Position numbers and translations under genes: made by a program. A model generated the notes under the pieces. The model saw only the letters and a list, made by a program, of their open reading frames with translations. It was not told the origin of the DNA and ran no database searches. Shown here in pieces: positions 1-44,344 of a DNA stretch of 45,325 nucleotides; positions within the stretch are counted from its first letter, which is position 1; every line of letters begins with the position of its first letter. Location of the stretch: contig JAPLCN010000202.1 in NCBI GenBank assembly GCA_026392215.1, positions 1 through 45,325 on the forward strand. Direction: 5' to 3'. Source of the DNA: Actinomycetota bacterium (lineage in GTDB: Bacteria; Actinomycetota; Humimicrobiia; Humimicrobiales; Humimicrobiaceae).

Positions 1-836
1 TATTCTTTAATACCCCCGGCTGTCAGACCGCTGGCAAGATGTTTTTCGATGATCATGAACAGGATGAGAACCGGCACGGTTGCGATGAGAGATGTGGCGA
101 ACAAATACTGCCATTGGATATCATGCTTTCCAAAAAACGCATATATTCCAACTGTCAGTGGTTTATTAGCTTCGGAGGATATAATGGTCAAAGCGAATGT
201 GAATTCATTCCATGCGGCGATAAACACAAAAATTAACGCAGTAATAATTCCAGGAGCCGACAAGGGCAGCAATACTCTAAAAAGTGCCTGGAATCTTGAA
301 CATCCGTCGATCCATGCCGCCTGCTCCAGCTCATAGGGAATTGTTGCAAAATATCCCCTCAAAATCCAAACGGCAAAAGCCTGGTTAAAAGCAGCGTTGA
401 CAAGCACAAGGCCCCAAATGGAGTCTACAAGGCCAAGCCAGCCTATTACACGGTATAGACCCACAAGAAGAACAATGGGAGAAAACATCTGAGTTACCAG
501 GATCAAATATAAATAAGCCTGGCGGCCTTTGAATTTCATCCTGGAGAGTGCATATGCTGCAGGAATGGCACATACAAGCGTTATTATTGTCGCTGACAAT
601 GCGACGATAACCGTATTAGTCAGATAATGAGCCAGCGGTATTTTCGTCCATATATCGATGAAGTTGTGAAACGTGAGTGTTTTTGGAAAAAAGGTCTGAG
701 GTATTGCGAAAACTTCATCGTTGCTTTTAAGTGAAGTCAGCACCATGATCAAATATGGAAAAAGAAAGACAAACAGGATCAAACATGCAGCGAAATATTT
801 CAGTATTCTGGAAATCACAGTGCTTTTGCCACCCAT
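1..836 (-). CDS. Sugar ABC transporter permease, MalG-like (3' end truncated by window)
   Basis: Minus-strand reading gives MGGKSTVISRILKYFAACLILFVFLFPYLIMVLTSLK...; EAA-type loop 'YELEQAAWIDGCSRFQALFRVLLPLSAPGI'; start overlaps the stop of the upstream permease. Confidence 0.9.
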   Translation of the reverse strand, partial: MGGKSTVISRILKYFAACLILFVFLFPYLIMVLTSLKSNDEVFAIPQTFFPKTLTFHNFIDIWTKIPLAHYLTNTVIVALSATIITLVCAIPAAYALSRMKFKGRQAYLYLILVTQMFSPIVLLVGLYRVIGWLGLVDSIWGLVLVNAAFNQAFAVWILRGYFATIPYELEQAAWIDGCSRFQALFRVLLPLSAPGIITALIFVFIAAWNEFTFALTIISSEANKPLTVGIYAFFGKHDIQWQYLFATSLIATVPVLILFMIIEKHLASGLTAGGIKE

Positions 837-1774
837 CAGTCTTCCCTCCTTAGCGCGATCGAAACATATAAAATTGAGAATGCCAGCAATATTAGAAAGA
901 TGATGACGGATACAGCAGCCGAAGGACCAATTTTATTTACCTGGAACGCAAGCTTGTAAAGATACGTCACAGCAGTATCTGTCTGATTCAGAGGGCCGCC
1001 ACGAGTGATGGTCCATATGATTGGGAATGAATTAAAAACATAGATAATGTTCCGTACTGTACTCACGGTTAAAGGCTGCTTCAACATTGGCAGGGTAATG
1101 TGTACAAATTTTCCAAAACCATTAGCTCCATCAATGTTCGCTGCTTCATACAAAATGCCTGGGATTGCCTGTAAGCCTGCCAGGATAACAATAGTTGTAA
1201 AAGGCATGGTATCAAATATACCTGCCCACATCACCACTGGAAAAGCACTTGAAGGTGCAGCGAGCCAGTAATAGTTCTTGTCGATTATATGCATGTTCAT
1301 TAGAAGCAGGTTCAGAGTCCCATAATTGTAGTCGAAAATCCACTTCCACATGGAAGCAGTGATAATAAGTGATGTAGCCCACGGAAAAATGATTGCAGCC
1401 CTTACAGTACTCCGTCCAAAAAAATTCTGATTTAATAGGTGGGCAATCCCCATAGACAGAACGGTACTTACTCCAACAACAACAACAGTCCATATAAGCG
1501 TATTCTTCAAGACCATCAGGAATGTGCCATCTTCAAAGAGGCTGGCATAATTCCGAAAACCATTAAGCCCTTTTATTATCCCGGATTTGCTGACCTCTGA
1601 AAAGGAAGTGCGAAACAGTTCCAGAATAGGTATAAAAACAATGACCATGACTAAAATAACACTAGGTAAGATCCATAAGTAAACAGACAATCCGGCCATG
1701 GAGAATTTTCGCTTTGAACTGGGCCTTTTTAAATTTTTACCGGATGAAACTGAATAATCTATTTGCTTAGCCAT
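836..1774 (-). CDS. Sugar ABC transporter permease, MalF-like
   Basis: 312 aa hydrophobic protein, EAA loop 'LYEAANIDGANGFGKFVHITLPML'. Confidence 0.93.
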   Translation of the reverse strand: MAKQIDYSVSSGKNLKRPSSKRKFSMAGLSVYLWILPSVILVMVIVFIPILELFRTSFSEVSKSGIIKGLNGFRNYASLFEDGTFLMVLKNTLIWTVVVVGVSTVLSMGIAHLLNQNFFGRSTVRAAIIFPWATSLIITASMWKWIFDYNYGTLNLLLMNMHIIDKNYYWLAAPSSAFPVVMWAGIFDTMPFTTIVILAGLQAIPGILYEAANIDGANGFGKFVHITLPMLKQPLTVSTVRNIIYVFNSFPIIWTITRGGPLNQTDTAVTYLYKLAFQVNKIGPSAAVSVIIFLILLAFSILYVSIALRRED

Positions 1775-1892: not shown

Positions 1893-3137
1893 TTATTTTA
1901 ATCCTTCAGCCATTTTCTGCAAATCATTCAAGGCACTTTCAACAGTGCTTTCACTCAGAATAACCTTTTGCAACGATTTGATTGCCTCAACTTTTACTTC
2001 CGGGTATTTGGTATCTGTTACAGGATAAGTCTGCGCAGCAGACAGCTCTTTGATAAATTCCGCAGTCATCGGGTCTTGTGCAGACATTGCATCTCCGACA
2101 GATTTTGTAACAGGCAGGAACCCTTCCTTTGTCACAAAGTCCTGGTAGTTTTTATCACTGTAGAAATAATCCAAAAATTTCCCTACAGCCTGTGGATTTT
2201 TTGCTGATTTGAACACCATCAAAGAATCCTCTACAAACAATGCGGTCTGAGGTTTCCCATCGTTTACAGGCATAGGTGCGATACCATAATTAAGTTCGGG
2301 AGCATCTGTTTTAAGAAGGGTCGGGAAGAAATTAGCTGTCATCAACATAGCAAGTTTCCCAGCACTGAATACTTTCTGGAGTTCATCCCTATTGATTGCT
2401 GTGGGTTTGGGGTTGGTAACCTTGTCTGTGTTGATCAGGTCATTCATAAAAGTGAATGCCTCAATATTCTCAGGGCTGTTTAGTGCCCATTTGCCATCCT
2501 TTTTCCATCCGCCGCCATTTCCAAATGCAAAATATGAGAAGAATGCTTCTCCTTCAAAATCTGTCATCTCGATACCGAATGCATCAATACCTGTTTTCTC
2601 CTTGATTGTTTTAGCATCCTGTCTCAGTTCAGACCATGTTTTGGGAGGATTGGCAATTCCTGCTTGTGCAAAAATATCCTTGTTATAATAAAGGCTTCGT
2701 ACCGATGATATCAGTGGTATGGCATAATTGATCCCGTTAATCTCATCACCTTTGTACATAGAATCATAGAATTTGGCTTTCAATTCAGGTGAAATGACTT
2801 TGGAGGCGTCCAATAACAGATCATCATTCACATAGGCAGAGAATAGATCGATATTTAGAAGATCAGGAGCCTGCTTTGTGGAAATCAATGTATTAACCTT
2901 TTGTACCAGGACATCCCACCCAACGACCTGCAGGTTCACTTTAATGTTGGGGTTTTCCTTCTCAAAGTTTGCAATCAGGTCTGTAAAATAGGGCTCTGTA
3001 GCATTACTATACTGCGAGGCTACAAAAGTAAATTCGGTCTTACCCTCCGTGGCTTTACACCCTGTGAAAGCAAAAGCGGAAAGCATGGCCACGATAAGAA
3101 ATACAACTATCAGTTTGGCAAATCTGCGACCGGACAT
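1893..3137 (-). CDS. Extracellular solute-binding lipoprotein (ABC sugar transport, family 1)
   Basis: Signal peptide with lipobox FTGC; 'YYNKDIFAQAGIANPPKTWSEL' motif; AGGAGG upstream of MSGRRF start. Confidence 0.92.
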   Translation of the reverse strand: MSGRRFAKLIVVFLIVAMLSAFAFTGCKATEGKTEFTFVASQYSNATEPYFTDLIANFEKENPNIKVNLQVVGWDVLVQKVNTLISTKQAPDLLNIDLFSAYVNDDLLLDASKVISPELKAKFYDSMYKGDEINGINYAIPLISSVRSLYYNKDIFAQAGIANPPKTWSELRQDAKTIKEKTGIDAFGIEMTDFEGEAFFSYFAFGNGGGWKKDGKWALNSPENIEAFTFMNDLINTDKVTNPKPTAINRDELQKVFSAGKLAMLMTANFFPTLLKTDAPELNYGIAPMPVNDGKPQTALFVEDSLMVFKSAKNPQAVGKFLDYFYSDKNYQDFVTKEGFLPVTKSVGDAMSAQDPMTAEFIKELSAAQTYPVTDTKYPEVKVEAIKSLQKVILSESTVESALNDLQKMAEGLK

Positions 3138-3150
3138 CTTATTTCCTCCT

Positions 3151-3254
3151 TTAATTTTGATTAGTAAAAACAATTAATTTGTTTGTAAATCAAACATTCT
3201 CTTTATGATTATAAAAAGATTTTCCACAATGTCAATAATCCGAATTGCTTTATT
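3151..3254 (-). promoter_or_regulatory. Promoter/operator block, copy 1 (TTGACA-16-TATAAT plus TGTTTG-N5-CAAACA)
   Basis: Minus-strand -35 at 3230-3235, -10 at 3208-3213, inverted repeat 3180-3196; near-identical block at 10282-10385. Confidence 0.8.
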
Positions 3255-3331
3255 ATCAATTCAGACATTACAGCTAAAAACCTTTAGCTTCCGAAAGAAC
3301 AATTATTATCCTTTAAAATAAAGTACGGCAA

Positions 3332-4699
3332 TTATTCAAGAATTGTTAAATTAATTCCTGCCAGCCTGCAATAAGCAGTCATTTCCTGCTGAAGGTCTCC
3401 ATAATAAACTATATAATGCGGACCTGCTATATTTTCCTTGAATTTCTCTATACTGTAATTGGTTTTTATTTTTAATCCGGGAATCATCGGACCGCAAGAA
3501 TTTTTCCATCCCTCCTCCTGAAAAATTTCCGGAGTTTCAGAATTTCCCTTTAACAACTGCAAACTTAATTTCCCATCTCTTGCACTTAAATTCATTAGTG
3601 TTATTTCGCCTGTTTTTAGTTTCGAAATATTCATGATGCCTTTTGCACCGCCCCAGTCATGTTCCCTGATCTCAATGCAATCCCCTCTGCAAGCTTTAAA
3701 CGGGGCAAACCCGCATGAAGCCATCAGAAACCCGTCACTGTAAAATTCAAAAATCTCTAGGAAGAAAGATTTTTGGGAAGTTATTTCTGAAATAATTACC
3801 TGTAAAACAAGATTATAAACATCACATTCGCAAATTGCGTCAACCTTATTGCTGATATACGAAAGTACCATACAAGGAGTGAAGCCAAGAAGTACGCCAG
3901 GGTCGCTGCCGCATTTTAATGTGATAGCCTTATAACCACCGTCTTTAATAATACTCTCCATTGCTGCAGAATATCTTGCAAATAATTCCATCTCCAGATT
4001 ATTGATATCAGTTTTGTATATATATTTTCTTAAATCATTTTCATAATGCTTAATTTCATCTTGGCTTACGGAGTCGGCAATATTTTTAAGAGCCAGAAGT
4101 TCAATATTGTCCACCTGAATACCTGTAATCTTTTTAATTATGTTACCGTCATACATGAAAGGAAAAAGATTTGAGCAGGCATATCCGATGGATACGATGC
4201 TGGTATTTTTTATATTTCTATAAGATGCTGCAATTTTTATATATTTTATTACTTTTTCTACTGCTGGTTCTTCGTCCAGATTATCAAAAACAATAAAATT
4301 TTTTATATTCATCAAATCCAGGGAGTATTTTAAAAGACTTACTCCGGCAGCTGCCGCCGGCGCAATTAAACCTTTTTCAACATAGTAACCGGAAAGACTC
4401 CAGACAATTAATGGAATATAAAGGAATTCTTCAATAACTTTCAGCAATTTTGGCGATTCTCCCCAGCCTGCATAAATTACGAGCAAAGAAGAGGAATCTT
4501 TTATTGTAGCCGACACGACTTCTTTTATTTTAAGCAATTCGTCCTTATCGTGATCATTAACACAGCCAATAAAATTAATTTCAAAATCTTCAGGGGCGTT
4601 ATTTTTTAATTTTTCGTAAGCATTAAGAATAATTGCACCCATTTTTTCTTTTGGATGGGCATAACTATAAAAACCGATAACAGATGTTTTGTTTCTCAT
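3332..4699 (-). CDS. L-fucose/L-arabinose isomerase-family-like protein
   Basis: 455 aa; overall layout and C-terminal 'GVLLGFTPCMVLSYISNK...' resemble fucose isomerase-like proteins. Confidence 0.6.
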   Translation of the reverse strand: MRNKTSVIGFYSYAHPKEKMGAIILNAYEKLKNNAPEDFEINFIGCVNDHDKDELLKIKEVVSATIKDSSSLLVIYAGWGESPKLLKVIEEFLYIPLIVWSLSGYYVEKGLIAPAAAAGVSLLKYSLDLMNIKNFIVFDNLDEEPAVEKVIKYIKIAASYRNIKNTSIVSIGYACSNLFPFMYDGNIIKKITGIQVDNIELLALKNIADSVSQDEIKHYENDLRKYIYKTDINNLEMELFARYSAAMESIIKDGGYKAITLKCGSDPGVLLGFTPCMVLSYISNKVDAICECDVYNLVLQVIISEITSQKSFFLEIFEFYSDGFLMASCGFAPFKACRGDCIEIREHDWGGAKGIMNISKLKTGEITLMNLSARDGKLSLQLLKGNSETPEIFQEEGWKNSCGPMIPGLKIKTNYSIEKFKENIAGPHYIVYYGDLQQEMTAYCRLAGINLTILE

Positions 4700-4774
4700 T
4701 TTCTTTTCAATAATTTTTAAGATTGGTATTAAAACACTTAAATATAAGCCGGATAAAACTTTTTATTCCCGTTC

Positions 4775-5998
4775 TTATCCCTGTTTCATATTGGAACCGT
4801 AAAAAGACTGCGGCTCCCTGAAAATAATAAAATCTATATAGTCTAGACCATTTTTTATTGCCCCATATATTTTGGATCTGTTCCTTAGACTTGAAAATAC
4901 CACATCTCTTTTGTAAGGAATTATTTTTTCCACCTCATTTTTAAGCAGATTTAAAAAATCCTGTCCAAGCTCTACTATTTCACCATTTATTACAACAAGT
5001 TCCGGGTCAAGTGTTATGACCAGGGAAGCAATTCCCAGAGCCAGAGTCCTTATTATACTGTTATTTATTAAATCTCTAATTTCGGTTTTTAAATTATATA
5101 AAGAAGCTATGTCACTAAAATTGCTGATATTATATTGGAGATTATTTGCTTTAATATATTCTTTAACGATTTCGGTAATCACTCTGATATCGCACTTTGA
5201 TTCAAAATATCCCAGATTCTTATTGCCGTTTAATAATTCATTATAATCAAAATTTTCCGCCACAGGCAAAAATGCAATTTCTCCCAGATAACCGCTCTTG
5301 CCCTCTCTTATCTGTCCGTCAATAATTATTCCCGAACCAATACCGTAAGTAACGACTATATAAATAATATTTGAAAAATTGCTGAAGCTTTTCCATTGCT
5401 CCCCGATAGTCTCCAGCTTAACATGGTCTTTTAATATCACATCTATTTTATATCTTTCAAAAAACAACTCCCTTAAATCCATCCCAATCCAGTCGCTGAT
5501 ATAAGGTGCCCATTTTATCTTGCCTGTCCTTGTATTAAATGTCTCGGGAGATCCCAGACTAATCAGGCAAATTTTTTCTATCCCTATTTTTGAAATTATC
5601 CTGTCTGTTTTTTTAAAAACCGTTTCCGTTATTTTTTTTGCACTTACTTCTTCGACGGAATACTGTATTGTTTCTTCTTCTATTATTTCTCCGATTAAAT
5701 TGCAGACAACAATATTTGCTTCTCTTATAGTAATAACAATGGAAACAAAATAATAATAATCTTTGTTAAAATATATTAAAGTGGGCCTCTTGCCTAAATT
5801 GCCTTCGACTTTTTTACCTTCCAGTATAATATTATTTGCAACCATATCATTGCATATTTCTGAAACAGTTGATCTCACAATCCCTATTTCCTTTGAAATA
5901 GAAGCTCTGGACATCGGGCCGTCATTTTTTAGTAATTTTAAAATCAGCCCCTGATTCCTTGACTTTATATATTTCTGGTTATATTTTTTATCAGCCAT
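4775..5998 (-). CDS. ROK family transcriptional regulator (NagC/XylR-like)
   Basis: N-terminal winged HTH 'NDGPMSRASISKEIGIVRSTVSEICNDMVANNII' followed by ROK domain 'YGIGSGIIIDGQIREGKSGYLGEIAFLP'. Confidence 0.92.
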   Translation of the reverse strand: MADKKYNQKYIKSRNQGLILKLLKNDGPMSRASISKEIGIVRSTVSEICNDMVANNIILEGKKVEGNLGKRPTLIYFNKDYYYFVSIVITIREANIVVCNLIGEIIEEETIQYSVEEVSAKKITETVFKKTDRIISKIGIEKICLISLGSPETFNTRTGKIKWAPYISDWIGMDLRELFFERYKIDVILKDHVKLETIGEQWKSFSNFSNIIYIVVTYGIGSGIIIDGQIREGKSGYLGEIAFLPVAENFDYNELLNGNKNLGYFESKCDIRVITEIVKEYIKANNLQYNISNFSDIASLYNLKTEIRDLINNSIIRTLALGIASLVITLDPELVVINGEIVELGQDFLNLLKNEVEKIIPYKRDVVFSSLRNRSKIYGAIKNGLDYIDFIIFREPQSFYGSNMKQG

Positions 5999-6093
5999 CT
6001 GCTTTACTCCGTAAAAAACGCTATTTTATATTCAAATATTTCTACCGGAAACTTGTGCTAATATCGATTCATCTTTTTAAATTATTTATTTTA

Positions 6094-6780
6094 TTATTCG
6101 CTGAATATAACTCTGCAGGGTAATCCTGTTGTATTCATGATCTTTAAAGGGCATATATATATCTTAACAACTGTTTTTGTCAGCTTGTCCAGATTTACAA
6201 GAGGCGCAACAAGAGAAACATCATTGTCGTAAATAATTTCCCAGCTTCCTCTTTCATTTTCAAGACAATCGATATATGCAGAATCAAGTGCTAATATAAA
6301 TGGCTTTTTGTTAACAAGATACTTAACAGCATCTCTTTCGCAAAACCAGGCATCTGTCAAAAAATCTTTTTCATTCCAGTGAGAACCCCAGCCTGTTGCA
6401 AGAACAAGTACTGAACGTTCGGGAATATTTCCGGTAATGTTTTTTTCTGCTTTTTTTACAGCTTCAAGTGTTACAACCGGTCTTTTACCTTCTTTTTTTA
6501 ATTCATTCAAGTCAAATTTATAAACAAAAGCGTCTACTCCAAATAATTTTTCAATAGGAATATCGCTCATCGGATATGATTTTTCTATACCAATGGAATG
6601 TGCAGGTCCGTCAATATATGTTCCAGTAAGCATGCTGAAACCTTCAAAAGCATTGCTTTTAGGGTGAAACCCTTCAACCCAAGCAGGCTCTTTCAGGTCA
6701 ACAAGTTTAAAATCAGGAAAAGGATCCCCGTATGACCACATGCCATCATAGATCGGGCCTGATGCATCTATTATTTTCAT
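6094..6780 (-). CDS. Cyclase family protein (kynurenine formamidase-like)
   Basis: 'MLTGTYIDGPAHSIG' HxGTHxD-like motif region; 'LVLATGWGSHW'; likely start at MKIIDASGP. Confidence 0.8.
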   Translation of the reverse strand: MKIIDASGPIYDGMWSYGDPFPDFKLVDLKEPAWVEGFHPKSNAFEGFSMLTGTYIDGPAHSIGIEKSYPMSDIPIEKLFGVDAFVYKFDLNELKKEGKRPVVTLEAVKKAEKNITGNIPERSVLVLATGWGSHWNEKDFLTDAWFCERDAVKYLVNKKPFILALDSAYIDCLENERGSWEIIYDNDVSLVAPLVNLDKLTKTVVKIYICPLKIMNTTGLPCRVIFSE

Positions 6781-6814
6781 AAAATTATCCTTACTTAAAA
6801 AATATTCATTTATA

Positions 6815-7813
6815 TTAAGATGTAAGAGCAATTTTTAAATCATCAGCCACAGGGTCAATTATTACAAAATCACAGGATGACAATCTTAAAATTGAACCTG
6901 GAATTTCAGGAACTATTGGGCCATGAAGCGCAAGCCTTACAATAAATTTCTGCCATGTTATACCGCCCGGGAAATAGCCTCCCTGATCGGTAAGTCCGCA
7001 TCCGTCATTCCACCATGATCTGTAGTCGGCATTTAGTGTAGTTGATGATCCTATAGTGTGCGCTTTGGGTGGAATAAATGCCCACGCGCCATTCATATCG
7101 GTCATAGCCATCTGACATGTTGAAAGAGGGTGAAACTCCACACAGCTTGGCTTAGCTTTTTTCCATTCTTCAAAAGATAGACCACGTTCTTTGGCCAGGT
7201 GTGGATCCCAAAAAGCATAATGTCCTGAAAAACCAGTTCCTCCATAAACAATATTGGCACCTTTTGCTCCAGGTTTCTTACGTGCATCAATAATCATATC
7301 GTCAAAATCATTTATATTATTCTTATTAGGAAAATGAATGTTTTTTTCAGGAATTTTGAGTTCAGGCTTTACCCTCGAGAAAAAATTTGTCTCGATTGTC
7401 CAATGAAATGATCCGGGCCAGTTGTGGTTAACGTCATTGCCATTTTCATCACAATATTCATCCATTGCAAAATAATGCACGTGTTTTAACGGAATATTTA
7501 ATGCATTAACCATGTCAGCCAGAAGCTGATATTGAAAGATAGGGCCAGTCGGAAAGACTCCTACAAATTGTTTTCCTTCATCAAGAGCTTCTTTTATTCT
7601 TATTAACATGTCGAGTGCCATCTGAAAGTGGAAATCTTTTACAGGCGCAATCCTTACCTTAAACTCAGTATGGGAATCATCAGGAACATTACAAATATCT
7701 TCTTTCTTTACCTTTGCTGCTTTCTTGCATGCTTCCATGTCTCTGAAGGCAAGGAATCTGGCAGGAGCAAAATTTATTAAGTCAATATCAGGATTAAAAT
7801 CTTTAGACAACAT
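6815..7813 (-). CDS. Glucosamine-6-phosphate deaminase/isomerase-like protein
   Basis: 'GVFPTGPIFQYQLLADMVN', 'VHYFAMDEYCDENG', 'YGGTGFSGHYAFWDP'; AGGTT ribosome site before MLSKDF. Confidence 0.75.
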   Translation of the reverse strand: MLSKDFNPDIDLINFAPARFLAFRDMEACKKAAKVKKEDICNVPDDSHTEFKVRIAPVKDFHFQMALDMLIRIKEALDEGKQFVGVFPTGPIFQYQLLADMVNALNIPLKHVHYFAMDEYCDENGNDVNHNWPGSFHWTIETNFFSRVKPELKIPEKNIHFPNKNNINDFDDMIIDARKKPGAKGANIVYGGTGFSGHYAFWDPHLAKERGLSFEEWKKAKPSCVEFHPLSTCQMAMTDMNGAWAFIPPKAHTIGSSTTLNADYRSWWNDGCGLTDQGGYFPGGITWQKFIVRLALHGPIVPEIPGSILRLSSCDFVIIDPVADDLKIALTS

Positions 7814-7878
7814 AACCTCCCCTTTAAAAAATAATAATAATAAATACTTATAAAATGCCATTAACATAAAAAAACAAA

Positions 7879-8928
7879 TTACTTTTTCCTATACCTGTTA
7901 AAAGCTTCCACAGATGCCATTACATTTTCATCGCTATATGCAGGCCTATGCCACTTAACTATCTCACAGATGAAACCGCCATCAGGTGTAGATAATTCTC
8001 TGACAAGCTCATCTGCTTCCTTCTTTACTTCCCCGGGTGTTCCGACTGCAAGCGTATCCTTCATATCAACAGGAGCTTTAAGACATATTTTGCCGGCAAG
8101 ATTTTCCTTAACCTTTTTTATTCCCGTAGTCTTTATGTCAGGTATGAAAAACAAGTCTATGTCCATATCAAGCAGGTCCTTGTGAACCGCTTCAGTATTT
8201 CCATCCATACATATTGAAGTATACAGGCCAAGATCATGGACATAATTATAGAACTTCTTAAGTCTTGGTTTAAATTCCTTCCTCCATACTATAGGATTTA
8301 TGACCATGCCGGAATTTTGTCCCCAGTCTTCAATTACCGTTATCATATGTGCACCGGCATTCTTAAAATAGACAGTTATCTGTTTATAGTAATCAATAAC
8401 CTTTTCATAAATATCCACTACAAGATTTAAATCTGTTGCTACCTTCATGAAAAAATTCTGAATGCCAAGTATAAAATTTGTGGTAAGAAAGAAGCCCGGA
8501 TCTATAAATCCGTTAACAAATCTATCTGAGTAGTATCTGTCAATTACCTTTTTTAACTCAATATATTTTTTTTCAATCTTTTTCGGGTCAGGAAATTCAT
8601 ATTCTTTAAAATTCGGATTTTTTTCCAGCGGGTGTTCAAGTAAAACATAAGTTGAATTCATATTATTCGGTATTTTTAACTTTGTACCAAACTGATCTGA
8701 ATAGATTGTCTCTTTCTGTTCATTTTTTCCTATTTCTTCAAAGAACCATGAATAAGCTTGAGGCCAAAAAGAATCGAAATTTTCTGTTCCCGGAATGAAT
8801 TGGACTTCACCGGGGTTCAATGTGTGATATGCATTGTAAATATGAGGAACCTGCTCTGTTTCCATCGGTAAATAAGTTGGCTTTTTAAACTCAACGGCTC
8901 TTTTTACATTATCAATATGATCTGACAC
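7879..8928 (-). CDS. Uroporphyrinogen decarboxylase-family (UroD/methyltransferase-like) protein
   Basis: 349 aa UroD-like organisation; 'YTSICMDGNTEAVHKDLLDMDIDLFFIPD'. Confidence 0.75.
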   Translation of the reverse strand: MSDHIDNVKRAVEFKKPTYLPMETEQVPHIYNAYHTLNPGEVQFIPGTENFDSFWPQAYSWFFEEIGKNEQKETIYSDQFGTKLKIPNNMNSTYVLLEHPLEKNPNFKEYEFPDPKKIEKKYIELKKVIDRYYSDRFVNGFIDPGFFLTTNFILGIQNFFMKVATDLNLVVDIYEKVIDYYKQITVYFKNAGAHMITVIEDWGQNSGMVINPIVWRKEFKPRLKKFYNYVHDLGLYTSICMDGNTEAVHKDLLDMDIDLFFIPDIKTTGIKKVKENLAGKICLKAPVDMKDTLAVGTPGEVKKEADELVRELSTPDGGFICEIVKWHRPAYSDENVMASVEAFNRYRKK

Positions 8929-8968
8929 TAAATTCTCCTTTAAAAAACTATAAAAAGTTCAATTTTAT

Positions 8969-10264
8969 TTAGCCGCAATAATCAACAGCTGTTAAGACCA
9001 TTATTTTGATTAAATCCAGAATATCTTTAACTTCTACATTCTCGTCTATCCCATGCGGATTTTCACCTTTGGGACCTATTACTACCACTTCTGTATTTCC
9101 GGCTTTTTTAAATGCAAAAGCATCACAGGCAATACCAAGACCGCATTCATTATAATCAAGGTTTATATTTGAAAAGGATTTCCTGATTGATTTCATGGCT
9201 TCATGGTTAATATCTGTCCTGTGCCCTTCAATAAATCTTGTAACGGTTTCAAACTTCGGAAAATCATCCTCAAACTCCTTATATGAGTTTAATTCCTTTT
9301 TCATAAAATCCATGAATTTATCCTTTGCTTCGTTCTCGCTTGTGTCTGCAAAAGTTTCCAGCCAGAAGTATATGTGTCCCTTTGTCGGAACAGAACCTGA
9401 TTCCAGATAATTTGAACCTCCGGAGTATAACTGAAAAGTCAGAAGTCTTATAAATTGTTCGGTCTTATAATTTTTTGATGCTTTTATTCCTTTTAGAATT
9501 TTGTTGTATTTTTCAAGTGCTAAAGCAATTTTGCTTAATTTATATATCGGATTTGGAAGTTCAAGGCCAAAACCAAATCCCCCTGGCCCCTGAACATCCA
9601 ATGTTGCTTTCCAGTCACTTCCCCCTATGGTTTCAACGCCGGCCGACATATCGCTTGTTTCCGGCAAAATAGCAAAATCAATACCAGGATATCTAAGTCT
9701 TGCCGCAACAGTCCCATTAACTCCGCCGTTTTCCTCATCTATTACACTCTCGGCAAGAATGTCTCCCTTTAAATTAATACCAAGGTCATTTAAACATTTT
9801 ATTGCAAAAAAACCTGCCAGTGCGCCTGCTTTCATATCCATGGACCCTCTTCCGTAAAGCTTCCCGTCTTTGACTTTGCCGCTAAAGGGGTCAGGGAAAA
9901 CTTTCCATTCTTTTTCCTTAACAGGCATCACATCCATATGACCGGAAAATAATAATGATCTTATGCTGTCCGATCCTTTTATCTTTGCAACAACGTTAGG
10001 TCTTCCCTTATATATTCTTTCTGTCCCGTCCACAGTCGGAAAAAACATCGGATGCTCTCTGATACCCTTGACATCGTCAATCTCAAACACATCAATGTTT
10101 TTTTTAGGGATGAATTTGGATATAAAATTATAAAGATATTCCTGACCTGGTTTTTCATTACCTGTCGGAGGAGTATTTTCGGTCTTGATCTGAATTAGTT
10201 CTGATATAGTATTTAAAATCAACTCTTCGTTTTTCTTAATCCAGTCAGCAATTTTTTCAATCAT
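8969..10264 (-). CDS. M20 family metallopeptidase (ArgE/DapE-like)
   Basis: 'LLFSGHMDVMPVKEKEW', 'GRGSMDMKAG', 'ESVIDEENGG'. Confidence 0.9.
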   Translation of the reverse strand: MIEKIADWIKKNEELILNTISELIQIKTENTPPTGNEKPGQEYLYNFISKFIPKKNIDVFEIDDVKGIREHPMFFPTVDGTERIYKGRPNVVAKIKGSDSIRSLLFSGHMDVMPVKEKEWKVFPDPFSGKVKDGKLYGRGSMDMKAGALAGFFAIKCLNDLGINLKGDILAESVIDEENGGVNGTVAARLRYPGIDFAILPETSDMSAGVETIGGSDWKATLDVQGPGGFGFGLELPNPIYKLSKIALALEKYNKILKGIKASKNYKTEQFIRLLTFQLYSGGSNYLESGSVPTKGHIYFWLETFADTSENEAKDKFMDFMKKELNSYKEFEDDFPKFETVTRFIEGHRTDINHEAMKSIRKSFSNINLDYNECGLGIACDAFAFKKAGNTEVVVIGPKGENPHGIDENVEVKDILDLIKIMVLTAVDYCG

Positions 10265-10281
10265 CGATAAATATTTTCCTC

Positions 10282-10385
10282 TTAATTTCAATTAGTAAAA
10301 ACAATTAATTTGTTTGAAAAGCAAACATTCTTTTTATAATTATAAAAAGATTTTCCATAATGTCAATAACCCGAATTGCTTTATT
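10282..10385 (-). promoter_or_regulatory. Promoter/operator block, copy 2 (TTGACA-16-TATAAT plus TGTTTG-N5-CAAACA)
   Basis: -35 at 10361-10366, -10 at 10339-10344, inverted repeat 10311-10327; aligns without gaps to 3151-3254 with about 8 mismatches. Confidence 0.8.
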
Positions 10386-10620
10386 TAAAAAGTATTCCAA
10401 ATAGTATCGTTGCCTCATTTAAAAAAAGTATCTGAAATTAATTTAAACTGATTGTTGTCATATTTTTTGCTACAATTAGTAAATCAAAGAGTTTTAGACC
10501 GAAAGGTGCGGAAAGTGAGATATAAGATAGTGTAAATCCCATTATAGACCAATGGGTAAACATACAAAACAATACAGGTGTCGAAAACCTCAATATAGCC
10601 CCCATTACCTGTGCATTTAA

Positions 10621-27046: not shown

Positions 27047-28462
27047 TTAAACATAAAGATAATCTGCGTATGGCATTTTTCTAACTTTGTTAAGCCCAAG
27101 CCAGTATGCCATTTCTTCCAGATATATGCCTACATTTTCCATAACCATTGGATAATGGTGAGGAAGCCCGTTAAGAATCATTGTGTTTGCAAGGTCCATC
27201 ACTTTAATAGGCTCATTATATAATTTTAAATCATTTACCCAGCCCCGGCTGCCATTAAATGCTTTTTTATCTTCATCAAAGAACCTGCCTGTAAAGTAAT
27301 AAAATCCCTGGCCTTCATCAAAAAACCTGAATACTGTTACAGCTGACTTCTTAAAAATAATATCTGTTATCGGAGCACAGTTTTTAAGTGTTTCATCATA
27401 TTCTGCAAAATAATGCCTGTCACAAACACAGCCTCTGCCGTTTGCCATTTCTTTAGGAGCAGAACCGCAATGCCATAATAAAAGGGATTCGTCTTTTTCA
27501 TCGAATTTCGGGAGATCCATTACTGCAACTGGTTTATTTGTTAATGACCTTAAAATTATCATTGAAATTGTGCTTAAAACATCTGCTTCGCAGCCCCCTG
27601 GAAGCCCAATGGAGTTAAGCATCGAATTAACAAGGCAGCCTACCATTTCCTTATTGGGCATGAGTTTCGGCCAGCAGGAAAATGCAATGGCAGAGTAATT
27701 ATTTTCTGCGGCTATTTTCTTTATTGCAAGAAACATCTGGACAGAATACTTGATCTTATCTATAGAAGCTTTCCCGACCTTTACAACATCCATTAATTTT
27801 TTAAACTCCGCTTCGACTTCAGCTGAAGGGATTTTCTCTCCGAGAGCTATGATATCTTCAACCTCATAATCCCTTGATACATTCACCTTCAGGTTTTTAT
27901 ATATATCTCTGGGGTCTACAGTATGATTAATATGGCCGTCAGCAAGTTTTCCGATTTGAGCTACCCTCGCATTTTCAAGAGCTTTGATTGCTTTCAGGGC
28001 TTTAACGGTAATTTCAAATCTTGGTTTAAAATATTTTGAATCTATCCCGCCAAAAAACCATTTAATTTTTTTAGGATTTCCTCTGAAGTTATTTTTAGCG
28101 ATGCCTGCATTTTGAGATAAATTTACAAGAGAAGCTAGCGGCATGGGACCTTCTTCACGAAGCTCTTCAATTGCCCACAGTCCAAAATGCGCTCTTGCCT
28201 TCATTATTTCAAAGATAAAATCTCCTATTATATATGAAGGATGAAATAACAAACAAAAATCAACATTTTTATCATCAAGTTCTTTCCTAACTGCTTCAGC
28301 CTGTCCCATCGAAGAAATAACTGTATTAATATTTATAAGCTCAAAATCCATTTCAGAAGCCATCTTAGCCAGCTCGCCCTGATATTTTTCAAAAGATTTA
28401 AGGCCTTCAGTAGAAAATCCAACCATAAAACCAGCCACAAAACCTATTTTTAACTTCGCCAT
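27047..28462 (-). CDS. L-fucose/L-arabinose isomerase family protein
   Basis: 471 aa; 'YSAIAFSCWPKLMPNKEMVGCLVNSMLNSIGLPGGCEADVLSTISMIILRSLTNKPVAVMDL' typical of the family. Confidence 0.78.
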   Translation of the reverse strand: MAKLKIGFVAGFMVGFSTEGLKSFEKYQGELAKMASEMDFELININTVISSMGQAEAVRKELDDKNVDFCLLFHPSYIIGDFIFEIMKARAHFGLWAIEELREEGPMPLASLVNLSQNAGIAKNNFRGNPKKIKWFFGGIDSKYFKPRFEITVKALKAIKALENARVAQIGKLADGHINHTVDPRDIYKNLKVNVSRDYEVEDIIALGEKIPSAEVEAEFKKLMDVVKVGKASIDKIKYSVQMFLAIKKIAAENNYSAIAFSCWPKLMPNKEMVGCLVNSMLNSIGLPGGCEADVLSTISMIILRSLTNKPVAVMDLPKFDEKDESLLLWHCGSAPKEMANGRGCVCDRHYFAEYDETLKNCAPITDIIFKKSAVTVFRFFDEGQGFYYFTGRFFDEDKKAFNGSRGWVNDLKLYNEPIKVMDLANTMILNGLPHHYPMVMENVGIYLEEMAYWLGLNKVRKMPYADYLYV

Positions 28463-42465: not shown

Positions 42466-42861
42466 ATGGATTTATCTCAGCTAAGGAAAAAGATAAAAGA
42501 CTTAAACCTTGAGCGCTTTAAACTTGAAATGGAAATGATAAATTCTCTTTCAAGAAAAAGTATGCTGCCCGGCTCGGTGGTGGAAAAATATATAATATGC
42601 GGGAAAGAAGGCTGCAAGTGCAAAAAAGGTTCCCTTCACGGGCCGTTTTACTACTTAACGTATAAAGAAAACAAAAAGACAAAAATGATATTTTTAAAGA
42701 CAGCTATTAGCAAAAGAGCAAAAGTATTAAATGATAGCTACAAAAGCTTCAGAAAATTAAGGGCAAAAGTAAGCATGATAAACAGGCAGATACTGGCTTT
42801 AATGGATGAAATTGAAAAGATTAATACGGTAAGTCTATCCGGTATTAAAGAAGATGGATGA
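42466..42861 (+). CDS. IS-associated small accessory protein (DUF6788-like)
   Basis: 131 aa with 'CGKEGCKCKKGSLHGPFYYLTYKENKKTK' immediately upstream of, and overlapping, the transposase ORF. Confidence 0.75.
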   Translation: MDLSQLRKKIKDLNLERFKLEMEMINSLSRKSMLPGSVVEKYIICGKEGCKCKKGSLHGPFYYLTYKENKKTKMIFLKTAISKRAKVLNDSYKSFRKLRAKVSMINRQILALMDEIEKINTVSLSGIKEDG

Positions 42862-44344
42862 AAAAATAAACTGGAAATTTTATGAAAGAAACGACAAAAA
42901 GGTAGCACGCCTTGTAAGAGAGGGCTCTCTTGAGACAATAACAGGAACAGGCTGGGGCTTTCTTGACAGGTTCTTTAGTTTTCTCTATGAAATAGGGTTC
43001 TTTAAAATAATTGATACCCCTGGCCGGGGTTATACAAGAATATTAATTCCTGTTGCAAGATTAATTACAACATACTCTGTTAAGATTTTACTTGGTATTT
43101 CTTCAATGAACAAAATCCCGGATCTTCTTTTTAGGGAAGTATCTTTACTTAAGTTAATCGGCTTTACTGCAGCCCAGATAAAAGAAGGCTCCTGCAGAAG
43201 GGGAAAAGGCGGCTCAATTCCCATAAATAAAAATACATTATCCAGAATGCTTGAAAGGTTAAGCACGCTTGAAGTAAATGAAATACTTGCATCTACCGTA
43301 AAAACTCTTGCTAAAAAGAAATTTATTAAAGGCTCTGTCTTTGTTTTAGACGCAACAGATATACCCACAACAGATAAGTGTGAGGGACGGGGAGTAAAGA
43401 CGGTAAAGATTAAGAAATATGACAAGCTTACTAAAGAATTTATTGAGACAGAAAAAACAACTTACGGGTTTAAGTTAATTGTAATATGGGAAATAAAATC
43501 AAAAGTAGTGGTTGCTGCAAAAGTAGTAAAGATATCAGAGCATGAGTCAAAGCATGCATTAAGTCTTGTAGAAACAGCCAGGCAAAATCTCGGGGAAAGT
43601 AAAATATCACTTCTTTTAATTGATGCGGGCTTTGTTGATGGAGTTTTTCTTTTTAAATTAAAGCATAAGCTTAAAACAGACTTTATTGTTAGAGCCAGAA
43701 AGAATATGCATGTAGCCATGGATGCAAGATCTCTTGCACAAACACCAGGATGTTTTAAAGGCCAAAGTAAAGAATATAGCTGTATTGGGATAGAAAATCT
43801 TTCCTCATATTCCCAGTATAACTGCGTGGAAGCGTTAAGAAACATATATAAAAAGGATTTTAAGTCCTTTAACTTAAATGCGGTTGTTGTAACAGAATAC
43901 AAAGGCAGAAAAATAGCAAATGAAAAACAAACCGTATTTTTAACAAGTCTTGATGTTAAAAATCCCTGCACCGTAGCTGACTACTATGACAATAGAAGCT
44001 TAATAGAAAACTGCCTCTTTAGGGAATTAAAGCAGGGCTGGAACATAACTAAAATACCAATGAAGAAAAAATCTGCAGTTATTTCCCACACTATTTTAAC
44101 CCTTGTAATGTACTCTCTTAATGCATGCTATCAAACTGAAGAAGGCAAAAAGCTTGCAGAAAAAGGGATAAGAAAACTGCGTGATGCCGATTTATCAAGT
44201 ATCCATAAAGTTATTGTATTTGCCGGTAGCTATTTTGCTATATTTGATATTGAAGAATACAGCTTAATTGTGCGCTCACCCCCAAAAGAATTCTTTAGAA
44301 TTAATCCAACTATAGCTAAAAAAAGACTTGGTTTAAAAGATTGA
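42854..44344 (+). CDS. DDE transposase (IS4 superfamily-like)
   Basis: 'VLDATDIPTT', 'LLIDAGFVDGVFLFKL', 'YYDNRSLIENCLFRELKQGWNITKIPMKK'. Confidence 0.9.
   Translation: MDEKINWKFYERNDKKVARLVREGSLETITGTGWGFLDRFFSFLYEIGFFKIIDTPGRGYTRILIPVARLITTYSVKILLGISSMNKIPDLLFREVSLLKLIGFTAAQIKEGSCRRGKGGSIPINKNTLSRMLERLSTLEVNEILASTVKTLAKKKFIKGSVFVLDATDIPTTDKCEGRGVKTVKIKKYDKLTKEFIETEKTTYGFKLIVIWEIKSKVVVAAKVVKISEHESKHALSLVETARQNLGESKISLLLIDAGFVDGVFLFKLKHKLKTDFIVRARKNMHVAMDARSLAQTPGCFKGQSKEYSCIGIENLSSYSQYNCVEALRNIYKKDFKSFNLNAVVVTEYKGRKIANEKQTVFLTSLDVKNPCTVADYYDNRSLIENCLFRELKQGWNITKIPMKKKSAVISHTILTLVMYSLNACYQTEEGKKLAEKGIRKLRDADLSSIHKVIVFAGSYFAIFDIEEYSLIVRSPPKEFFRINPTIAKKRLGLKD

Follow-up and report, generated by a model that had tools for sequence, protein, structure and literature searches.

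A duplicated, predicted ROK-repressed promoter in an actinobacterial sugar locus and an insertion sequence lineage that probably targets sigma-70 promoters

The window analysed here is a 45,325-nucleotide stretch of DNA from an uncultured actinobacterial family (Humimicrobiaceae; GenBank assembly GCA_026392215.1, contig JAPLCN010000202.1). It carries a sugar locus with a duplicated promoter block, one copy of which (copy 2) heads an operon containing the gene for a ROK-family transcriptional regulator, while the other (copy 1) heads transporter genes (Table 1). A previous sequence-only reading of the window had described the block as a gapless alignment of about 104 bp with about eight mismatches, each copy carrying on the minus strand a TTGACA hexamer, a 16-bp spacer and TATAAT, followed by an inverted repeat, TGTTTG-N5-CAAACA, with identical arms and differing spacers. 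Each of these points stands: the ungapped alignment differs at exactly 8 of 104 positions, the promoters and repeats are present as described in both copies, and gene calls place the solute-binding gene after copy 1, the M20 operon after copy 2 and the ROK gene between them. By BLAST the two copies match at 91% over 111 bp (E 1.7e-39), and a search of the 2.15-Mb source genome (207 contigs, estimated completeness 96.5%) found no third copy, the next-best matches spanning 18-24 bp with E values of 0.006 or worse; the block is present twice and is not a dispersed repeat. The two block promoters are the sole 12/12 sigma-70 matches among 41 promoter-like sites between positions 1800 and 10900, a total that is itself nearly matched by shuffled sequence. 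In both copies the inverted repeat, hereafter the operator, starts 11 bp past the −10, and the perfect TGTTTG-N5-CAAACA is found at two sites genome-wide, both within the block copies. The earlier identification of the block as promoter and operator is supported for those two parts, but it overlooked that the upstream edge is the terminus of an insertion sequence (IS).

Table 1. Positions of the block, its parts and the genes of the locus in the window.
Feature	Coordinates	Strand	Remarks
Block copy 2 (promoter, operator, 5' leader, IS terminus)	10282..10385	-	heads M20 / URO-D / NagB-like / cyclase / ROK / isomerase operon
Block copy 1	3151..3254	-	heads solute-binding protein and permease genes
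Promoter of copy 2, TTGACA-N16-TATAAT	10339..10366	-	
Promoter of copy 1, TTGACA-N16-TATAAT	3208..3235	-	
Operator of copy 2, TGTTTGCTTTTCAAACA	10311..10327	-	predicted repressor site over start region
Operator of copy 1, TGTTTGATTTACAAACA	3180..3196	-	
Left-end remnant of ISNCY/ISLbi1-like IS, 75 bp	10372..10446	+	two transposase-site-like repeats, no transposase; inward CGAATTGCTTTATTTAAAAAG...
14-nt terminus of same IS end at copy 1	3241..3254	+	
5-bp interval, IS end to −35, copy 2	10367..10371	.	GGTTA on minus strand; target-site-duplication position in related elements
5-bp interval, IS end to −35, copy 1	3236..3240	.	GATTA on minus strand
M20 (ArgE/DapE-type) hydrolase	8969..10291	-	start probably ATG at 10264
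URO-D / MtaA-like methyltransferase family protein	7879..8928	-	
NagB-like protein	6815..7867	-	NCBIfam scores below cut-offs
Putative cyclase (PF04199)	6094..6831	-	
ROK-family transcriptional regulator, N-terminal winged helix-turn-helix (HTH)	4775..5998	-	Pfam ROK 2.2e-21, HTH_24 4.5e-06, both above cut-off
Fucose / sulfoquinovose isomerase-like protein	3332..4699	-	weak matches
ABC sugar solute-binding protein, downstream of copy 1	1893..3173	-	start probably ATG at 3137
ABC permease, operon shared with solute-binding protein	836..1774	-	

The outermost 14 nucleotides of the block (3241-3254 and 10372-10385; AATAAAGCAATTCG on the minus strand) are this IS terminus, and they recur elsewhere in the source genome and in the genomes of relatives. 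The possibility that AATAAAGCAATTCG is a transcription-factor site or an UP element was ruled out by the transposase genes, terminal repeats and target duplications. IS sequence past the 14 nucleotides is found at copy 2 only, where it runs to 10446, and the orthologous promoter of a relative in the same genus (G004) has no IS, its homology to the block beginning at TTGACA. Because copy 2 keeps 75 bp of the IS end and copy 1 just 14 nucleotides, the insertion probably came first and the promoter duplication later, although it counts against this order that it hangs on a single locus. Two independent insertions into already duplicated promoters, both decayed later, would also place an IS end at each copy; given that the IS lineage favours such promoters (see below) two hits are not implausible, but copy 1 keeps exactly the last 14 nucleotides and no more of the IS, the block similarity stops at that same point, and a single insertion followed by copying is simpler, so we regard this course of events as doubtful.

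The IS encodes an rve-type transposase of 420-430 residues, for which the rve domain match (1.2e-07) is just under the cut-off in L102 and over it in L109. It aligns with the ISLbi1 transposase at 42% over 95% and is thus a full-length homologous DDE/rve enzyme, and its plasmid homologues are annotated as ISNCY, ISLbi1 or ISBj12. The left end reads inward CGAATTGCTTTATTTAAAAAGTATCTGAAAYNGTATCGTTGC, with a second inner copy, and the right end reads CCTGTTGCGTCATCTAAAAAAGTATCTGAAA. Exact 5-bp target duplications flank L119, L122, L190, L191, L193, L195, L202, L206, L207 and L214, so that the elements share with ISLbi1 both inverted terminal repeats and a 5-bp target duplication. Viral contigs contained no copy of the IS end, and the PDB no sequence relative of the transposase. 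Whole-length transposase homology to ISLbi1 and ISBj12 (ISNCY in current annotation) is about 37-42%. The ISBj12-type elements differ in having longer shared ends: in L192 and L194, an ISBj12-type and a Marinobacter element, both ends share some 25 more bp outside the CAATNCG motif, for example CATCCTGATTGTCGCGC, and these proteobacterial relatives have longer terminal repeats.

ISLbi1 itself, on Leptospira biflexa plasmid p74 (L190), has the exact target duplication AGAAG followed by TCCGATAA-TATAGA-TTATGTCG, a dif-like XerC/XerD site. It differs in this from the present IS and resembles elements of the IS1202 family, whose 'dif hunters' such as ISAjo2 are about 1.5 kb long, make a 5-bp duplication, carry an extra internal transposase site and invariably insert in a single orientation, exactly 5 bp away from a site bound by a protein, namely the XerC site of dif (PMC10132070). 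The present IS is like the IS1202 family in size, 5-bp duplication, inner transposase site, orientation and 5-bp geometry. It differs in its target, a promoter and not the XerC site of dif, and in its outer ends, which in IS1202 are 5'-TGT and ACA-3' and here are CGAATTGC (left) and CCTGTTGC (right) with the 5-bp duplications outside them. If the E of CFVEQKN, assigned by eye, is the catalytic one, the residue seven positions after it is V; in IS1202 it is Q.

IS left ends were collected from 35 genomes of the family with a pattern lying wholly inside the IS end that left the flank unconstrained; an earlier pattern requiring ATTGA was biased and was not used for the promoter claim. The pattern matched 51 times in 23 genomes and its reversed control not once, which yielded 49 distinct flanks of adequate length with pairwise identities of at most 60% over 60 bp. 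Stacked without gaps, these flanks are nearly uninformative over the duplication (positions 1-5), but read TTGAC(A/T) at positions 6-11 (T43 T41 G30 A38 C21 A28 of 49) and TATAAT at positions 29-34 (T35 A34 T28 A28 A25 T35 of 49), which makes a sigma-70 promoter, spaced at 17 bp and in one orientation. The two hexamers together, matched at four or more of six positions each, stand at the expected offset in 32 of the 49 flanks and at ±1 bp in one; offsets 30-89 give at most four, and 1000 shuffles at most five (mean 1.2). None of seven right-end flanks has both hexamers. Of 48 left ends, 38 look towards the start of a co-directional gene no more than 300 bp away, and the genes are diverse. Of 18 more distant homologues from Actinomycetota genomes and plasmids (about 35-61% identity), seven carry the hexamer pair at this offset, whereas other offsets average 0.08 and never exceed 2; the evidence for extending the promoter signal to Actinomycetota-wide homologues is weaker.

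Several of the G+C-rich actinobacterial homologues (L124, L209, L207, L214, L125 and L206) lie upstream of LexA-box-like promoters, for example CGAACACATGTTCG. The gene behind L124 encodes a DUF222/HNH (13E12-type) protein, and the genes that follow L209 and L207 look similar. The distance from the duplication to the −10 is about 10 bp in L207, L214 and L206, not 23.

Several observations weigh against a strict rule of promoter targeting. Both hexamers are missing at the offset in 17 of the 49 family flanks and in 11 of the 18 distant ones, the intact IS copy in the source genome (L116) has no −35 there, and many ends are remnants whose retention beside promoters could inflate the signal. The promoter preference is strong, not absolute. 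The main rival to targeting builds on that last point and supposes that the IS inserts loosely and that ends just upstream of a −35 are selectively kept, their terminus acting as an upstream element or insulator, for which the AT-richness of the terminus, the many remnants without a transposase and the tendency of most ends to face a gene all speak. However, the offset is exact, its 5 bp being the target duplication, and the count drops from 32 to 1 on moving a single base, while L119, L122, L195 and L202, which have an intact or near-intact transposase and exact duplications, share it. We disfavour selective retention because the signal is sharp to a single base, and consider it unlikely.

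Our preferred reading is that the ISLbi1-like Actinomycetota lineage probably targets sigma-70 promoters, inserting in a single orientation so that its left end lies 5 bp ahead of the −35 and its 5-bp duplication abuts the −35 of TTGACA-N17-TATAAT promoters, and that it probably does so by recognising promoter DNA or the RNA polymerase or sigma factor bound to it. The duplicated 5 bp, at about −40 to −36, would then coincide with the upstream boundary of the footprint of sigma/RNA polymerase. With the dif-like neighbour of ISLbi1 in view, we propose that the transposase group as a whole may read a bound or bendable protein site, in this case the promoter or its polymerase. The ROK promoter of the window would be one such target, later copied to recruit a transporter.

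The operator of that promoter matches a known type of site, as the published ROK/XylR site is GTTT-N7-AAAC (PMC9104551) and TGTTTG-N5-CAAACA contains it exactly. Orthologues of the ROK protein are found in G004 (86%) and, at 55-58%, in G019, G013 and G023, the last of another genus (55%), and in these three several operon partners are retained. In G004 a TTGACA..TATAAT promoter followed by a perfect site, TGTTTGCTTTACAAACAAATTAATT, lies upstream of the NagB-like orthologue (87%), and a site with one mismatch, TGTTTTACGAACAAACA, directly follows the −10 of G004's own rok gene; G023 has a site with one mismatch, TGTTTGAAAAACAAACT, upstream of the NagB-like operon. The arms are therefore kept at orthologous loci, a check that the sequence-only reading had proposed. 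An operator profile, trained on the very sites it scored, gives these sites 19-25 and every other position of the window and the orthologue loci less than 10. Every genome in which the operator was seen at a NagB-like operon has a ROK orthologue.

Taken together, the conserved operator and its match to the published site support the earlier suggestion of a two-site local regulon, with the operator arms as the likely site of the local ROK protein, the predicted repressor of both copies. The position of the operator just past the −10 fits a repressor, and rok, as a gene of the copy-2 operon, is predicted to be autoregulated. On the other side, the G013 contig with the ROK orthologue has no operator (best profile score 9.2), and perfect palindromes in G003, G013 and G019 are located within other genes or a tRNA-like stretch and are apparently chance matches. 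For this reason we rejected a genome count of palindromes versus ROK orthologues (Fisher p 5e-5). In the orthologous contig of G019, which begins at the operon, no operator was found. Were both operators to serve another HTH repressor of the sugar locus, the G013 ROK locus without a clear site would be accounted for; the site at the G004 rok promoter, the restriction of NagB-like sites to genomes with a ROK orthologue and the identity of the half-sites with published ROK sites all speak for the local protein, and we think such a second regulator improbable.

Because the operator precedes the catabolic operon in both G004 and G023, and G004 has a single block-like match, copy 2 is probably ancestral and copy 1 derived. 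The explanation as a whole, a ROK-repressed duplicated promoter together with an IS that prefers promoter edges, appears quite likely to us. The ROK protein would bind TGTTTG-N5-CAAACA past each −10 and block transcription until a sugar-derived inducer appears, giving a two-promoter local regulon with autoregulation. An ISNCY/ISLbi1-like IS would have entered the ancestral copy 2 at a point 5 bp ahead of the −35 and been reduced by decay to its 75-bp left end, after which the promoter, the operator and the last 14 nucleotides of the IS would have been copied ahead of the ABC transporter genes, bringing the transporter into the regulon. It is very improbable that the block as such is a mobile, promoter-bearing repeat: although a dispersed IS end forms its upstream edge, the genome holds two copies only, and outside the IS end the flanks of the other copies have nothing in common except the promoter hexamers.

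The predicted regulon is a further case of a known type. ROK repressors such as XylR of Firmicutes, NagC/Mlc and the Thermotoga ROK regulators (PMC9104551, PMC2873477, PMC3750489) likewise combine an HTH with a ROK domain, have a palindromic GTTT-N7-AAAC site near the promoter, regulate a catabolic operon along with its transporter and are autoregulated. Here, by contrast, the M20 hydrolase, NagB-like, URO-D-like and cyclase genes correspond to no known ROK pathway, and the two promoters are copies of one another. The value of the ROK part lies in a clear-cut predicted regulon that can be tested, from an uncultured family of actinobacteria, in which growth of a regulon by promoter copying can be seen.

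The IS part is the weightier. Bacterial insertion sequences are often found in promoters, but we know of none reported to choose them at base-pair resolution. The literature searched, which included few subscription papers and did not extend to ISfinder, yielded no report of an IS with a base-exact sigma-70 promoter preference and no description of promoter targeting by ISLbi1 or ISBj12. Site-hunting IS are already known as a kind; a sigma-70 promoter as the target is, to our knowledge, new and would be an unusual rule for a bacterial mobile element. If true, the fixed 5-bp geometry would tie this lineage to the dif-hunting IS1202 elements, IS ends would mark promoters in unculturable genomes, and it could be tested whether the transposase reads promoter DNA or the transcription machinery. 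The lineage would also be a bacterial counterpart of the yeast elements Ty1 and Ty3, which insert upstream of RNA polymerase III promoters and similarly land, harmlessly, at a region where transcription starts, but which are eukaryotic long terminal repeat retrotransposons guided by polymerase III factors and have unrelated enzymes (PMC5911963).

All genes from M20 through the permease are on the minus strand, which puts rok inside the operon headed by copy 2. With the solute-binding protein and the M20 hydrolase starting at the ATG codons given in Table 1, the block probably lies fully upstream of both genes. We found no intrinsic terminator ahead of copy 1, and transcription from copy 2 may therefore continue into the transporter genes. 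Against the NagC model (NCBIfam NF047937) the ROK protein scores 81.5 bits where the curated cut-off is 650, and it is not assigned to that family.

The isomerase-like protein encoded at 3332-4699 has a paralogue at 27047-28462; both have almost no Pfam signal and a weak match to the sulfoquinovose isomerase SftI, and a weak Fucose_iso_C signal is found in the former only. A neighbouring cluster at 11-28 kb holds a second M20 gene and a second isomerase-like gene and encodes a rhamnose mutarotase, an FGGY kinase, a ribose-type ABC transporter, a B12-binding corrinoid protein, URO-D/MtaA-like methyltransferases, an ETF with a ferredoxin domain and an acyl-CoA dehydrogenase. The cluster might serve the demethylation or breakdown of O-methylated sugars. 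A second, unrelated IS occupies 42466-44344; it encodes a DDE_Tnp_1 transposase, the start of which is overlapped by 8 bp by the preceding DUF6788 open reading frame.

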